Shown: piece after piece, positions 31,981-37,278 of the stretch
How the letters are laid out: the number at the start of each line of letters is the position of its first letter
How positions within the stretch are numbered: the stretch's first letter is position 1
Source of the DNA: Pseudomonadota bacterium
Lineage (GTDB): Bacteria; Pseudomonadota; Gammaproteobacteria; Burkholderiales; Burkholderiaceae_C
Direction: 5' to 3'
Assembly (NCBI GenBank): GCA_018261815.1
Contig: JAGTRL010000002.1
Span: forward strand, 1 to 49,003
Length of the DNA stretch: 49,003 bases
Made by a program: the position numbers and the translations under genes
Notes under the pieces: generated by a model
Seen by the model: only the letters and a program-made list of their open reading frames with translations
The model's database searches: none
What the model was told of the DNA's origin: nothing

Positions 31981-33522
31981 TCACACGATCTTGCTGGCGT
32001 GGCCGGCCCAGTACTTGTCGCGCAGCAGCCGCTTGTAGAGCTTGCCGGTCGGGTGGCGCGGCAACTCGGCCTGGAAGTCGATCGAGCGCGGGCACTTGAT
32101 GGCCGACAGCTGCTCGCGGCAGAAGGCGATCAGCTCCTGCTCCAGCGCCTTTCCGGCCTGCGCCATGTCGCGCGGCTGCACCACCGCCTTGACCTCCTCG
32201 CCGAACTCTTCGTTCGGCACGCCGAACACCGCCACGTCCAGCACCTTGGGGTGGGTGACCAGCAGGTTCTCGGCCTCCTGCGGATAGATGTTCACGCCGC
32301 CGGAGATGATCATGTGGGCCTTGCGGTCGGTCAGGTACAGGTAGCCCTCGGCATCCATGTAGCCGATGTCCCCCAGCGTGGTCCAGCCCTTGGCATTGCG
32401 GCCCGCGGCGGTCTTCTCCGGGTCGTTGTGGTATTCGAAGACCTTGCCGTCGGAGAAGTAGACGCCGCCGTTCTCGCCCGGGGGCAGCTCGTTGCCGTCG
32501 TCGTCGCAGATGTGCAGCACGCCCACCACCGCGCGGCCCACCGTGCCGGGGTGCGTCAGCCAGTCGGTCGAGCCGACCAGCGTCATTCCCATGCCCTCGG
32601 TGCCGGCGTAGTACTCCCAGATGATCGGGCCCCACCAGTCGATCATCTGCCGCTTCACCGGCACCGGGCACGGCGCCGCCGCATGGATGGCGATGCGCAG
32701 GCTCGACAGGTCGTGCGCCAGGCGCTGTGCGTCGGGCAGCTTGAGCATGCGCACGAACATCGTCGGCACCACCTGGGTGTGGGTGATGCGGTGCTGCGCG
32801 ACCAGACGCAGGAACCCGGCCGCGTCGAAGTGCTCCATCACCACCACCGTGCCGCCCAGACGCATCACCGCCATGGCAAAGCGCAGCGGTGCCGCGTGGT
32901 ACAGCGGCCCGGGCGACAGGTACACGGTGTCAGGCCCCATCTGGAACGGCCCGATGCACACCTTGAGCAGCGAGTTGACGAAGGCGATGTCGGTGGATTC
33001 GGGCGGCACGTACACGCCCTTGGGCCGGCCGGTGGTGCCCGACGAATAGAGCATGTCGCCGCCGGCCGATTCGTCGGCGATGCGCTCGGCGGGACAGCCG
33101 GCCACTGCGGCCTCGTAGGCCTGGTAGCCGTCGATCGTGCCGTCGAGCATCAGCCGCGTCTGCACCTTCGGCGTTTGGCCCAGCAGCTCGGCGGCCTGGC
33201 CGGCCAGCGCCATCGAAGTGATGAAGACCTTGGCGCCGCAGTCGCCGACGATGTAGGCCGCCTCCCCGGCGGTCAGGCGGCTGCTGATGGCGGTGTAGAT
33301 GATGCCGGCGCGCTGTGCCGCCCAGCAGATCTCGAAGTAGCGCGGGTGGTTCTCCAGCATCAGCGCGATGCGGTCACCGACGCGCAGGCCCAGGCGGCGC
33401 AGCAGCTGTGCCAGCCGGTTCGAGCCTTCGTCGAGCTGGCGATAGCTGACCGTCAGGTCGCTGCCGGCCATGCGGTAGGCGGGCTTCTCCGGCGTCTGCC
33501 GGGCATGGATCGAAGGGTGCAT
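31981..33522 (-). CDS. AMP-dependent acyl-CoA synthetase (fatty-acyl/aryl type)
   Basis: A 513-residue ANL-superfamily CoA ligase with GGDMLYSSGTTGRPKGVYV, the tyrosine-containing A5 region WEYYAGTEGMG, GWTTLGDIGYMDAEGY and a C-terminal RHPTGKLYKRLLRD with the catalytic Lys. It should activate a carboxylic acid to its CoA thioester. ATG 33522 follows AGGAGACCCGA. It is divergent from the ferredoxin-CYP153 genes, so the alkanoic acid produced by that route is a reasonable substrate guess. It heads the operon that also holds the reductase, kinase and enolase-like genes. Confidence 0.9.
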   Translation of the reverse strand: MHPSIHARQTPEKPAYRMAGSDLTVSYRQLDEGSNRLAQLLRRLGLRVGDRIALMLENHPRYFEICWAAQRAGIIYTAISSRLTAGEAAYIVGDCGAKVFITSMALAGQAAELLGQTPKVQTRLMLDGTIDGYQAYEAAVAGCPAERIADESAGGDMLYSSGTTGRPKGVYVPPESTDIAFVNSLLKVCIGPFQMGPDTVYLSPGPLYHAAPLRFAMAVMRLGGTVVVMEHFDAAGFLRLVAQHRITHTQVVPTMFVRMLKLPDAQRLAHDLSSLRIAIHAAAPCPVPVKRQMIDWWGPIIWEYYAGTEGMGMTLVGSTDWLTHPGTVGRAVVGVLHICDDDGNELPPGENGGVYFSDGKVFEYHNDPEKTAAGRNAKGWTTLGDIGYMDAEGYLYLTDRKAHMIISGGVNIYPQEAENLLVTHPKVLDVAVFGVPNEEFGEEVKAVVQPRDMAQAGKALEQELIAFCREQLSAIKCPRSIDFQAELPRHPTGKLYKRLLRDKYWAGHASKIV

Positions 33523-33623
33523 TCGGGTCTCCTGGTCTCCTGCGCCGCAGTGTAGGACCGCCACGCCGGTGCTAGCCCCGCGCCGGGTTTTTGCCGCGAC
33601 GCAACATGACCTCGTCACGCACA

Positions 33624-33658
33624 AAACTTGAACTGAGATTCGAATTTTTCTATGATGC
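33624..33658 (+). promoter_or_regulatory. promoter/operator copy A of ferredoxin-CYP153 genes
   Basis: A 35-base element that recurs at 36113-36147 with 29 identical positions. It contains a sigma-70-like pair: TTGAAC (33628-33633) and TATGAT (33651-33656) with exactly 17 bases between, pointing at the ferredoxin gene. Conservation extends through the spacer (TGAACTGAGATTC, with TGAA and TTC half-sites), more than a bare promoter needs, so a regulator site probably overlaps it. The TetR gene at 35468-36106 is the best candidate regulator. Confidence 0.75.
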
Positions 33659-33712
33659 GCCGCAGGCTGCGGGGCCGAATGTGACCCGCCTCATCCACCA
33701 CCCGGAAACACC

Positions 33713-34033
33713 ATGCCCAGAGTCATCTTTTTCGAGCACGACGGCACGCGCCACGAGGTCGATGCCACCAACGGCATTTCGCTGATGCGCGCTGCCGTCG
33801 ACCACAGCGTGCCCGGCATCGACGCCGACTGCGGCGGCGCTTGCGCCTGTGCCACCTGCCACGTCTACGTCGACCCGGATTGGCTGGCCAGGACCGGCAC
33901 CCGCACCGAGATGGAGGAAAGCATGCTCAGCTTTGCCGCCGGCACGCAGGACAACTCGCGGCTGGCCTGCCAGATCGACATGAGCGACGCGCTGGACGGC
34001 ATCGTGCTGCGCTTGCCCGAAGGTCAACATTGA
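33713..34033 (+). CDS. [2Fe-2S] ferredoxin (P450 redox partner)
   Basis: A 106-residue putidaredoxin/adrenodoxin-type ferredoxin. Cluster ligands are C40, C46, C49 (ADCGGACACATC) and C86 (SRLACQI). The family carries single electrons from an NAD(P)H-dependent reductase to a cytochrome P450 in the cytoplasm. It precedes the CYP153 gene by 150 bases on the same strand and lies 55 bases downstream of promoter copy A, so both genes are probably one transcript. No ferredoxin reductase gene is present in the window. Confidence 0.95.
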   Translation: MPRVIFFEHDGTRHEVDATNGISLMRAAVDHSVPGIDADCGGACACATCHVYVDPDWLARTGTRTEMEESMLSFAAGTQDNSRLACQIDMSDALDGIVLRLPEGQH

Positions 34034-34043
34034 CCACCCCCGC

Positions 34044-34140
34044 AGCGCCTTCGGCGCTCCCCCTCGAGGGGGCACCGCCAACGGCCCGGCAAAGCCGGAT
34101 CCGCGGCGTCCGCTCTAAGCCTGGCGGCGCGCGCTTTGCC
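34044..34140. repeat. intergenic hairpin-rich element between ferredoxin and P450
   Basis: Three symmetric parts lie in the 150-base gap: AGCGCC/GGCGCT (34044-34049 and 34053-34058, 3-base loop); a perfect 14-base palindrome CCCCCTCGAGGGGG (34059-34072); and GGCAAAGC/GCTTTGCC (34088-34095 and 34133-34140). It looks like a dispersed intergenic repeat of the kind seen in Burkholderiales, or an mRNA-processing or stability structure that sets the ferredoxin:P450 ratio. Copy number in the genome cannot be seen here. Confidence 0.55.
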
Positions 34141-34183
34141 CCAGCAACCTTTCCCCATCGCTGAGCTGAACCTGGAGAAGCGA

Positions 34184-35464
34184 ATGAACGCACACGTCGC
34201 CCCCACGACCCACGACGCCGAACTGCAGGCCCTGGCCCGCGAGGAGGCCTTCTCGATGCCGCTCGACGACATCGACGTCAGCAAGCCGCGCCTGTTCCAG
34301 GAAGACACCATCGGCCACTACTTCGCGCGGCTGCGCCGCGACGACCCAGTGCACTTCACCGAGAACGACTTCTACGGCCGCTTCTGGTCGGTGACCAAGT
34401 ACAAGGACATCATGACCGTGGACACCAACCACGGCATCTATTCGTCCGACTACACCCAGGGAGGCATCGCGCTGTGGAACGCACCGGACGTCAAGCAGCG
34501 GCTGCACATGTTCATCGCGATGGACCCGCCGAAGCACGACGAACAGCGCAAGGCGGTCAGCCCGATCGTCGCGCCGATGAACCTGGCATCGATGGAAAGC
34601 ACGATCCGCGCGCGCACCGCCAAGGTTCTGGACGAACTGCCGCGCAACGAGGACTTCAACTGGGTGCAGCGCGTGTCGATCGAGCTGACCACGCAGATGC
34701 TGGCCACGCTGTTCGACTTCCCCTTCGAGGACCGCAAGCTGCTGACCTGGTGGTCCGACGTGGCCACCTCGGTGCCCGAGGTGGACCATCTGGTCGAATC
34801 GCAGGAGGCGCGCCTGGCCGAGCTGGGCAAGATGCTGGTCTATTTCACACGGCTGTGGAACGAGCGCGTCAACGCTCCACCGAAGAACGACTTGGTGTCG
34901 ATGCTGGCGCACAACCCGGCCACGCGCAACATGCCACCGCTGGAGTACATGGGCAACCTGGTGCTGCTGATCGTCGGCGGCAACGACACCACGCGCAACT
35001 CGATGACCGGCGGGCTGCTGGCGTTGAGTCAGAACCCCGCCGAGTGGGCCAAGCTGCGCGCCAACCCAGGCCTGGTGGACAGCATGGTGCCGGAGATCAT
35101 CCGCTGGCAGACGCCGCTGCCGATGATGCGGCGCACTGCGCTGCAGGATATCGAACTGGCCGGCAAGAAGATCCTGAAAGGCGACAAGGTGGTGATGTGG
35201 TACCTGTCGGGCAACCGCGACGAGGAGGCCATCGACAACCCCGACGCCTTCATCATCGACCGCGCACGGCCGCGCCAGCACCTGAGCTTCGGTTTCGGCA
35301 TCCACCGCTGCGTGGGCAACCGCCTGGCCGAGATGCAGCTGAAAATCCTGTGGCAGGAGATCCTCAAGCGCTTCCCGGTGATCGAGGTGACGGGGCCGCC
35401 AACCCGGCTGCTGTCGAACTTCGTACGCGGCATCAGCCACCTGCCGGTGCGAATTCCCGGTTGA
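34184..35464 (+). CDS. cytochrome P450, CYP153-type alkane hydroxylase
   Basis: A 426-residue soluble bacterial P450. The I-helix is LLIVGGNDTTRNSMTGG (about 261-277), the ExxR is EIIR (304-307), and the haem loop is HLSFGFGIHRCVGNRLAE with thiolate C376. From memory of CYP153A6-type sequences, long blocks match closely: MFIAMDPPKHDEQRK, SIELTTQMLATLFDFP, IIRWQTPLPMMRRTAL and SGNRDEEAIDNPDAFIIDRA. CYP153 enzymes hydroxylate medium-chain alkanes or similar hydrophobic chains at the terminal carbon, using ferredoxin and its reductase. Start ATG 34184 has GGAGAAG upstream. The matching ferredoxin precedes it; a TetR gene and alcohol dehydrogenase follow. Confidence 0.93.
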   Translation: MNAHVAPTTHDAELQALAREEAFSMPLDDIDVSKPRLFQEDTIGHYFARLRRDDPVHFTENDFYGRFWSVTKYKDIMTVDTNHGIYSSDYTQGGIALWNAPDVKQRLHMFIAMDPPKHDEQRKAVSPIVAPMNLASMESTIRARTAKVLDELPRNEDFNWVQRVSIELTTQMLATLFDFPFEDRKLLTWWSDVATSVPEVDHLVESQEARLAELGKMLVYFTRLWNERVNAPPKNDLVSMLAHNPATRNMPPLEYMGNLVLLIVGGNDTTRNSMTGGLLALSQNPAEWAKLRANPGLVDSMVPEIIRWQTPLPMMRRTALQDIELAGKKILKGDKVVMWYLSGNRDEEAIDNPDAFIIDRARPRQHLSFGFGIHRCVGNRLAEMQLKILWQEILKRFPVIEVTGPPTRLLSNFVRGISHLPVRIPG

Positions 35465-35467
35465 GCT

Positions 35468-36106
35468 TCAGTCCATCCCCACGGCGCCGAGGAACACACG
35501 CGTCAGCTCGGCCTCGATCTGCTTGTCGGCCAGTTTCAACGGACCGGGGTCATGCAGCACCGCGTTGACCAGCGCGCCATAGACCAGCTGCAGCGCCACG
35601 CCCACACGCAAGCGGCGCTGCCGCGCCGGCACGCGCAGCAGGTGCGCATGCAGCGCCTGGTGCACCGAGTCGGCCAGCCGCCGACCGAAGGCATGCAGTT
35701 GCGGCCAGTAGAGCTGGGAGCGCGCCGAGTCGAAGTGGGCGGCGCGGAAGATGCCGCGGTGCGCACGGTGGATGTCGACCACATGCCGCACGATCAGCGC
35801 CACCTTGCGCTCGTTCGGCGCGCGCAGCCAGCGTGCGCTGGCCAGCAGCGAGGCCGTGTCGGCGAGCACCTGCTCGCCGGTGACGCGCAGCAGCTCGGCA
35901 AACCAGGCGTCCTTGTCGGCAAAGCGCGAATAGAACGAGCCCACGGCCATGCCGGCGTCGCGCGTCAGCTGCGCCACCGACAGCGTGCCCAGGTCCTGCG
36001 TATCGAGCAGTCGCCGCCCGGCTTCGAGCAGCGCCAGGTGCTTGAGCCGGCTGCGCGACTGCTTGGCCGCACGCACGCCGCTGGACAGGCCGGGGCTGGG
36101 TTGCAT
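35468..36106 (-). CDS. TetR-family transcriptional regulator
   Basis: A 212-residue protein with the TetR N-terminal HTH (LEAGRRLLDTQDLGTLSVAQLTRDAGMAVGSFYSRFADKDAWF, about 27-70) and a variable helical ligand-binding C-terminus. It lies between the CYP153 gene, on which it converges with 3 bases between stops, and the divergent alcohol dehydrogenase gene. The promoter element shared by both flanking units (33624-33658, 36113-36147) begins 7 bases from its ATG, so it probably also represses itself. The ATG at 36106 is preferred; an earlier in-frame start at 36172 would read through that element. Confidence 0.88.
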   Translation of the reverse strand: MQPSPGLSSGVRAAKQSRSRLKHLALLEAGRRLLDTQDLGTLSVAQLTRDAGMAVGSFYSRFADKDAWFAELLRVTGEQVLADTASLLASARWLRAPNERKVALIVRHVVDIHRAHRGIFRAAHFDSARSQLYWPQLHAFGRRLADSVHQALHAHLLRVPARQRRLRVGVALQLVYGALVNAVLHDPGPLKLADKQIEAELTRVFLGAVGMD

Positions 36107-36112
36107 CGGGTG

Positions 36113-36147
36113 AAACTTGAACTGTGATTCAGATTTGACTACGATGC
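36113..36147 (+). promoter_or_regulatory. promoter/operator copy B of alcohol dehydrogenase gene
   Basis: Second copy of the 35-base element at 33624-33658 (29/35 identical). TTGAAC (36117-36122) and TACGAT (36140-36145) are again 17 bases apart and point rightwards to the dehydrogenase start at 36211. This copy holds a clean inverted half-site pair, TGAA-N6-TTCA (36118-36131). It lies between the divergent tetR and adh genes, the usual place for a TetR operator. Confidence 0.75.
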
Positions 36148-36210
36148 TATGCAGCCCGGCAAGTTGCGTCAACGTGTCGGCCGAAACCTTCCCTTGACAA
36201 AGGCCCCGCC

Positions 36211-37278
36211 ATGCAAAGCTACGACGTTGCCGAATGGGGCCAGCCCCTGCAGAAGCGCCTGCGTGACACCCCGCAGCCCGGCCCCGATGAGGTGCTGGTG
36301 CGCCTGACGCATTGCGGCGTTTGCCACTCCGACGTGCATATCCGCGAAGGCTGGTTCGACCTCGGTGGCGGTAACAAGCTCAAGCTGTCCGAGCGCGGCA
36401 CGCAATTGCCGTTGACGCTGGGCCACGAGCCGATCGGCATCGTGCAGGCCGTCGGCGCCAAGGTTACCGGTATCGCGCCGGGGCGGCACGTGCTGGTCAA
36501 CCCGTGGATCGGTTGCGGCCAGTGCTGGGCCTGCAACAGCGACCGCGACAACCTGTGCAACAACATGCGCGCGATGGGTGTCGGCATCCAGGGCGCCTTT
36601 GCCACGCACCTGCTGGTGCCGCACTCGCGCTACCTGGTCGATGCCGAGGGCCTGGACCCGGCCCGCGCTGCGGTGCTGGCCTGCTCCGGCGTCACCGCCT
36701 ACTCGGCGGTGCAGAAGTTCGGCACGCTCGGGGCCGACGACTGGGTGGCCGTGCTCGGCTGCGGCGGCGTGGGCCTGATGGCGCTGTCGGTGCTGGCCGC
36801 GATGGGCCACCAGCGCGTCATTGCCTGTGACATCGACGATGCCAAGCTGCAGGCCGCGGCCGCGGTCGGCGCCGCGGCCACGGTGAACCTGAAGACCACG
36901 CCCGGGCCGACCGAGTTGCTGAAGATCTCCGGCATCGGCCTGGCGCACATGGTCGATTTCGTCGGCGCGCCGGCGACGACACAACTGGCCCTGCCCGCAC
37001 TGCGCAAGGGCGGCCAGATGGTCGTGGTCGGTCTGTTCGGTGGCGCGCTGCCAGTACCGCTGCCGGCGCTGGCCATGCGCGAGGTGTCGCTGCGCGGCTC
37101 GGCTGTCGGCAACACCACGCAGATCCGCGAGCTGGTGCAGCTGGTGCGCGACGGCAAGCTCAAGCTGCCTGCGGTGCAGGTGCGCCCGCTGGCAGAAGCC
37201 GAGGCCGCGCTGCGCGACCTGGAAGCCGGCCGGATCATCGGCCGCGTGGTGCTGGACACGGCCGAGGCCGCGGTATAA
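36211..37278 (+). CDS. adhA: zinc-dependent alcohol dehydrogenase
   Basis: A 355-residue medium-chain dehydrogenase. Catalytic zinc site: C38 (CGVCHSD), H72-E73 (GHEPIG). Structural zinc: C102, C105, C108, C116 (GCGQCWACNSDRDNLC). The NAD-binding Rossmann motif is VLGCGGVGLMA. These enzymes oxidise primary alcohols to aldehydes in the cytoplasm. A promoter element shared with the ferredoxin-CYP153 genes lies upstream, so it probably oxidises the alkanol formed by the P450 (inference). It converges with the ETF-QO gene; the 61 bases between hold nothing recognised. Confidence 0.93.
   Translation: MQSYDVAEWGQPLQKRLRDTPQPGPDEVLVRLTHCGVCHSDVHIREGWFDLGGGNKLKLSERGTQLPLTLGHEPIGIVQAVGAKVTGIAPGRHVLVNPWIGCGQCWACNSDRDNLCNNMRAMGVGIQGAFATHLLVPHSRYLVDAEGLDPARAAVLACSGVTAYSAVQKFGTLGADDWVAVLGCGGVGLMALSVLAAMGHQRVIACDIDDAKLQAAAAVGAAATVNLKTTPGPTELLKISGIGLAHMVDFVGAPATTQLALPALRKGGQMVVVGLFGGALPVPLPALAMREVSLRGSAVGNTTQIRELVQLVRDGKLKLPAVQVRPLAEAEAALRDLEAGRIIGRVVLDTAEAAV

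Follow-up and report, generated by a model that had tools for sequence, protein, structure and literature searches.

Genes of the CYP153 locus

A 49,003-nucleotide stretch of DNA from a bacterium of the Burkholderiaceae_C (GenBank assembly GCA_018261815.1, contig JAGTRL010000002.1; the whole stretch is hereafter called the window) contains two copies of a 35-base element, copy A at 33624-33658 and copy B at 36113-36147, within a locus for putative alkane hydroxylation. Downstream of copy A lie a 2Fe-2S ferredoxin gene (33713..34033, plus strand; Pfam Fer2, 37.9 bits at a cut-off of 21) and a cytochrome P450 gene (34184..35464, plus strand; Pfam p450). The gene of a TetR-family repressor of 212 amino acids, tetR (35468..36106, minus strand), is located between the two copies, and copy B is separated from its start codon (36106-36104, minus strand) by 6 bp. 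On the other side of copy B, a gene encoding a zinc-dependent alcohol dehydrogenase, adh, was found (36211..37278, plus strand; Pfam ADH_N and ADH_zinc_N). These family searches supported the gene identities proposed in a preliminary description of the locus, made from the sequence alone, which had also placed tetR between the copies with copy B beside its start.

The P450 is of the CYP153 type, judging from its best solved relative, CYP153A7 (E 2.8e-177), and from the Fer2 ferredoxin encoded upstream. The repressor gene is assigned to the TetR family because both domains scored above their cut-offs (TetR_N, 31.2 bits at a cut-off of 24; TetR_C_15, 33.1 bits at 26.8) and the structural model of the product (pLDDT 91.4) had a TetR fold. 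In structure comparisons of this model, EthR gave the highest Z score (19.8; rmsd 2.5 over 194 residues), DesT with bound palmitoyl-CoA was the top Foldseek match, and FadR with bound stearoyl-CoA reached a Z score of 16.8. The folds of EthR and of the acyl-CoA-responsive TetR proteins DesT and FadR resemble that of the model, but at an identity of 13-20%; neither the ligand nor the operator is implied by a shared fold. A long hydrophobic ligand of the TetR protein is plausible from the model, the shared fold by itself being no proof.

Repeated element and its inverted repeat

Copies A and B agreed at 29 of 35 bases, as the preliminary description had claimed. No other 35-base alignment of the two intergenic regions gave a better match; in dinucleotide-shuffled pairs, the corresponding value was 18.8 on average and 24 at most, and none of 2000 pairs reached 29. 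In a repeat search, the similarity extended over 42 bases, with 79% agreement. The promoter-like hexamers that had been reported in both copies were located at 33628-33633 (TTGAAC) and 33651-33656 (TATGAT) in copy A and at 36117-36122 (TTGAAC) and 36140-36145 (TACGAT) in copy B, with a spacer of 17 bases in each case. When the source genome (a 4.35-Mb assembly of 460 contigs, 85% complete) was scanned for TTGAAC-N17-TAYGAT, the only two exact matches were copies A and B, and the control gave 0 matches; thus, the scan that had been suggested as a check revealed no spread of unrelated copies.

Both copies contain a 24-bp inverted repeat, AAAYYYGAAY-N4-RTTCRRRTTT, which occupies positions 33624-33647 (candidate operator A, AAACTTGAAC-TGAG-ATTCGAATTT) and 36113-36136 (candidate operator B, AAACTTGAAC-TGTG-ATTCAGATTT); neither is assigned to a strand. 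Each site matches the pattern with 0 mismatches, and the half-sites agree at 7 of 10 positions in each copy. Across the window, the pattern had two perfect matches and four matches with 6 mismatches, and no position had 1-5 mismatches. The pattern was derived from six sites (two in the window, two in genome G778, one in G805 and one in G662). Six further sites, located in G826, G828 and G834, were identified once it had been fixed and are independent of it; their mismatches numbered 0, 1, 0, 1, 0 and 0.

A site equivalent to operator A was present in all six orthologous CYP153 loci. Comparison of these loci revealed that 16 of the 20 arm positions were invariant, as opposed to one of the four central ones. 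The 11 positions just downstream, where the -10 hexamer is located, included 8 invariant ones, whereas the flanks were almost completely variable (1/50 on the left, 1/55 further right). Because conserved arms surround a variable centre, copy A has the properties of an operator of the type bound by dimeric repressors. Equivalents of operator B were found upstream of tetR in five loci, and a gapless comparison of copy B gave invariant positions at 13/20 in the arms, 0/4 in the centre, 4/50 in the left flank and 2/55 on the far right. A one-base shift in G778 hides the promoter of tetR in this comparison, and the promoter was tested by pattern instead. The preliminary description had interpreted the repeat as one promoter/operator present in duplicate. 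A shared element does exist, but what was duplicated appears to be mainly an operator, with retained arms and a variable N4, and not a promoter.

Predicted promoters associated with the two copies

A predicted promoter of the ferredoxin-CYP153 operon (33628..33656, plus strand; TTGAAC-N17-TATGAT) overlaps operator A. Its hexamers, in the form TTGAAY-N17-TATGAT, were retained in 6/6 loci, in agreement with the promoter that had been postulated there. At copy B, a predicted tetR promoter was recognized on the minus strand (36144..36172), with TTGACG at 36172-36167 and TAGCAT at 36149-36144, again 17 bases apart. It was the sole match of this pattern in the window, and its hexamers and spacing were identical in all five loci with site B (the source genome, G778, G828, G834 and G826), the operator being situated just downstream of the tetR -10 hexamer.

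The promoter that may serve adh (36117..36145, plus strand; TTGAAC-N17-TACGAT) overlaps operator B, and in the source genome its -10 hexamer overlaps that of tetR. An adh ortholog with 84% identity adjoins tetR in G778 and G834. Among the three adh-bearing loci, an adh-ward -10 hexamer at a distance of 17 bp was found in two (TACGAT in the source genome and TAGGAT in G834) and was missing in G778. The best adh matches in G828 and G805 were only 43-44% identical and were located elsewhere in the genome, and the ortholog search in G826 and G662 gave nothing that passed E 1e-60. Copy B and the tetR promoter were nevertheless kept in G828 and G826, for which no close adh ortholog was found. Hence, copy B is a real site, but the preliminary description had assigned it to adh, its less conserved direction, while the tetR-ward promoter was present in 5/5 loci. 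Since conservation at copy B was seen in the arms and not in the plus-strand hexamers, simple duplication of a promoter was rejected.

Distribution of the element among genomes

Whole genomes were searched for the inverted repeat with up to 2 mismatches. The source genome contained two matches (A and B), G778 two, G805 one and G662 one, and all of them were located beside a TetR gene; the backward control gave 0, 1, 0 and 0 matches in these genomes, respectively. The TetR protein was detected in 6 of 81 genomes of the genus by scoring up to 38 candidates per genome at E <= 1e-30, a procedure by which positives may be missed. All six of these genomes carried the site (11 sites in total). With at most 1 mismatch, 10 matches were obtained across the 81 genomes, and all 10 were within CYP153-tetR loci.

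In contrast, the site was missing from all 13 CYP153 loci that gave no homolog of the TetR protein, the best match having 5-7 mismatches; for 11 of them, only about 1.5 kb of flank was covered, so a more distant TetR gene would go unseen. One of the 13 is the locus of a second CYP153 gene of the source genome, about 66-67% identical to the first (L028:8150-9370 of genome G000, contig C123), around which neither a homolog of this TetR protein nor the palindrome was detected. Wider searches covered samples of 369, 399 and 60 genomes from larger groups. In G662, the palindrome precedes the gene of a P450 that is only 23% identical to the CYP153 of the window over the aligned part (L026:7549-8940), and a TetR ortholog with 53% identity is encoded beside it.

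An identical 2-mismatch match, AAGCTCGAACCCTCGTTCAAGTTG, occurs in three genomes with no detected TetR (G829, G775 and G837; L115, L118 and L121) and could be a part of a coding sequence.

Distant TetR homologs

A contig search with the single TetR query gave no matches, and with a four-sequence alignment it gave 61 loci. Four of these (L038-L041) corresponded to G828, G778, G834 and G805 and were counted once; the remaining 57 (L042-L098) were scored. It was found that the distant tetR homologs were often preceded closely by a palindrome with the core GAAT-N4-ATTC, for example, AAACCAGAATCTCGATTCTGTTTT and AAAATAGAATAAGAATTCTAATTC. In the 300 bp upstream of the 57 genes, 8 scores exceeded those of all 200 shuffles and 16 were at p <= 0.05. 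Four of five further homologs of the same family (G757, G524, G843 and G854) also exceeded all shuffles, G843 and G854 sharing the site sequence. The shuffles for homologs preserved base composition only, the scoring matrix was built from 12 sites, and related species, such as those with the Limnobacter loci or G843 and G854, are non-independent; the figures for homologs are thus descriptive and not clean probabilities.

Residues V55, G56, F58, Y59, R61, F62, D64 and K65, which lie in or just after the presumed recognition helix, were invariant in 34 TetR sequences, as would be expected if the core GAAT-N4-ATTC is shared. Nine TetR-related records with 24-36% identity were found among plasmids.

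Two kinds of neighbourhood may be added. In a deltaproteobacterial assembly (L064:4900-6936), a distant TetR homolog is followed directly by a CYP153-like gene with 52% identity, and the palindrome TATTCAGAATAAGAATTCTGATTC lies upstream. In L061, L062 and L075, palindromes with the same core precede tetR, and from a reading of the sequences, as opposed to a family search, the neighbours resemble TRAP-transporter genes, together with sulfatases in L062 and L075.

Proposed mechanism and alternative explanations

Because the site occurred together with the TetR protein, accompanied it to another P450 in G662, was absent from the 13 CYP153 loci that gave no TetR homolog and had counterparts upstream of distant homologs, the repeated element is very probably the operator of the neighbouring TetR protein. 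Control of CYP153 and of tetR itself by this protein is strongly supported by comparison, as the palindrome is conserved, is almost confined to the locus and co-occurs with TetR, and the promoter hexamers are conserved as well. It is considered highly likely that the protein acts on the inverted repeat at both A and B and blocks the CYP153 operon and tetR until a ligand releases it.

According to the mechanism proposed, a TetR dimer or a pair of dimers would bind AAAYYYGAAY-N4-RTTCRRRTTT, and both A and B would be occupied when no inducer is present. At A, the protein would cover the -35 hexamer and the spacer of the ferredoxin-CYP153 promoter and thereby block RNA polymerase. At B, it would sit over the predicted start of the tetR transcript, resulting in negative autoregulation; in the source genome, it would also cover the -35 hexamer and the spacer of the promoter that may serve adh on the opposite strand. 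Release of the protein from both sites would be brought about by a hydrophobic pathway substrate or product (an alkane, alkanol, fatty acid or acyl-CoA).

Several observations weigh against this interpretation. G805 and G662 have tetR with no site upstream of it, so that the tetR-side site was present in 5 of 7 loci; therefore, autoregulation would not be universal. No such palindrome was found within 300 bp upstream of 41 of the 57 distant homologs (p > 0.05) or upstream of tetR in G447. The eleventh site in the genus, copy B of G778, has 2 mismatches and is credible by its position only. Moreover, among the 75 genomes in which no TetR was detected, 9 contain a single match with 2 mismatches, and the backward control matched in 6 of 81 genomes, which means that 2-mismatch matches alone mean little.

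The preliminary description had proposed a TetR-controlled regulon of two promoters, one for CYP153 and one for adh, that would be derepressed by a pathway compound. The shared element upstream of ferredoxin-CYP153 and its link to TetR were upheld, whereas at copy B the conserved promoter points to tetR and the adh-ward one was seen in two of the three adh-bearing loci. A single promoter/operator that was duplicated, with adh as the main target of copy B, would account for the adh-ward hexamers in the source genome and G834 and for the 84% identical adh beside tetR in G778 and G834. However, the absence of the adh-ward -10 hexamer from G778 and the retention of copy B with the tetR promoter in G828 and G826 argue against it, and we give this explanation somewhat less than an even chance. 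Control of adh from copy B, taken by itself, is plausible, likewise at slightly less than an even chance. An alternative in which a different regulator occupies the sites, or an activator uses them, and the TetR gene merely travels with the locus is improbable. The characterized CYP153 regulators are indeed AraC-type activators, according to the excerpts of the literature considered below, and binding of the TetR protein is predicted here; on the other hand, another regulator would explain neither the association of the site with TetR at the different P450 of G662 and its absence from CYP153 loci without a detected TetR nor the same-core palindromes before distant homologs, and the placement over the -35 hexamer and spacer and over the tetR start fits a repressor. 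That the copies are only similar sigma-70 promoters, with no operator, is hardly credible: they do share -35- and -10-like hexamers 17 bp apart, but the conserved bases form two arms that extend beyond the hexamers around the variable N4, and copy B of G778, G828 and G826 has a degraded pair of plus-strand hexamers but still retains the arms.

On a wider scale, the repressor reading may be extended, tentatively and with more doubt than confidence, to a widespread TetR clade with the GAAT-N4-ATTC core that was coupled repeatedly to P450s (CYP153 in the genus, another P450 in G662 and the CYP153-like gene at L064), the autoregulatory operator having subsequently been reused for adh within the genus. 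If so, adh joined the regulon beside the tetR operator with no new site.

Comparison with known regulators

TetR genes are usually divergent from their targets and associated with palindromic motifs, according to the excerpt of PMC4482099. The best solved relative of the TetR protein by profile was Rv0078/EthR2 of Mycobacterium tuberculosis (PDB 5wm9 and 6c31; E 3.4e-13). The excerpts of PMC6016246 describe its operator as a pair of 10-bp inverted repeats that covers the starts of two divergent genes and is bound by two dimers, which is the same layout as that of copy B. However, that operator is 21 bp long, the probe printed there is without GAAT-N4-ATTC, and the gene controlled does not encode a P450.

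AlkX of Dietzia sp. DQ12-45-1b is described in the excerpts of PMC8784404 as an autoregulated TetR repressor of alkW1 that is relieved by fatty acids; palmitic acid is reported in part of PMC9430723 to lower DNA binding of M. tuberculosis AlkX. As is predicted for the locus studied here, a TetR repressor is encoded beside an alkane hydroxylase and an operator of the inverted-repeat type lies at the hydroxylase promoter. The fold of AlkX (PDB 5ydp) is comparable to that of the TetR model (Foldseek rank 46, TM 0.51, 17% identity), and AlkX was not among the best 60 profile matches listed for the TetR protein. It was also missing from the 50 matches listed in the comparison by Z score, an absence that carries no weight. 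Unlike the latter, AlkX is actinobacterial and controls the alkB-type alkW1 and not a CYP153 gene; its alkB-rubredoxin linkage was not found here, the neighbours of tetR being ferredoxin-CYP153 and adh. Alkane genes of Dietzia maris include a tetR gene, for which no operator is listed in the excerpt of PMC4267283.

In the excerpts of PMC8784404, CYP153 regulators with experimental support are of the AraC type, and TetR control of alkB appears to be unique to Actinobacteria. CypR of Alcanivorax borkumensis and Dietzia, an AraC-type activator of CYP153, likewise acts on a ferredoxin-CYP153 promoter and responds to n-alkanes; it differs from the TetR repressor predicted here in its family and in being an activator. 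The CypR-type arrangement was not found at the locus, which has an acyl-CoA synthetase gene in the divergent position and a TetR protein as its linked regulator. In Mycolicibacterium chubuense NBB4, a TetR-like gene also flanks the fdx-CYP153 cluster, but control is ascribed in the same excerpts to a divergent AraC-like gene, and they describe no operator there.

No description of a TetR operator for betaproteobacterial CYP153 was found in the open-licence literature searched. The particulars of the element are thus new, while the kind of switch is ordinary. If the interpretation is correct, control of a betaproteobacterial CYP153 operon by a TetR repressor through a defined 24-bp operator would add a type of regulator, and the element would offer a possible part for an alkane sensor as well as a precise motif with which the pathway compound sensed could be sought.

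Divergent acyl-CoA synthetase gene

The gene divergent from the ferredoxin-CYP153 operon (31981..33522, minus strand) encodes a FadD4-like acyl-CoA synthetase (Pfam AMP-binding; NCBIfam FadD4, 647 bits, below the cut-off of 850) and adjoins the operon in 6/6 loci. Control of this gene from operator A was considered as well, but in the 50 bp to the left of operator A, nothing like a conserved divergent promoter was found; the gene may or may not belong to the regulon. Between the synthetase start and operator A, the sequence CAGTGTAGG (33548-33556) was present in all six orthologous loci. Its minus-strand reading, CCTACACTG, may hold the -10 hexamer (TACACT) of a separate synthetase promoter.

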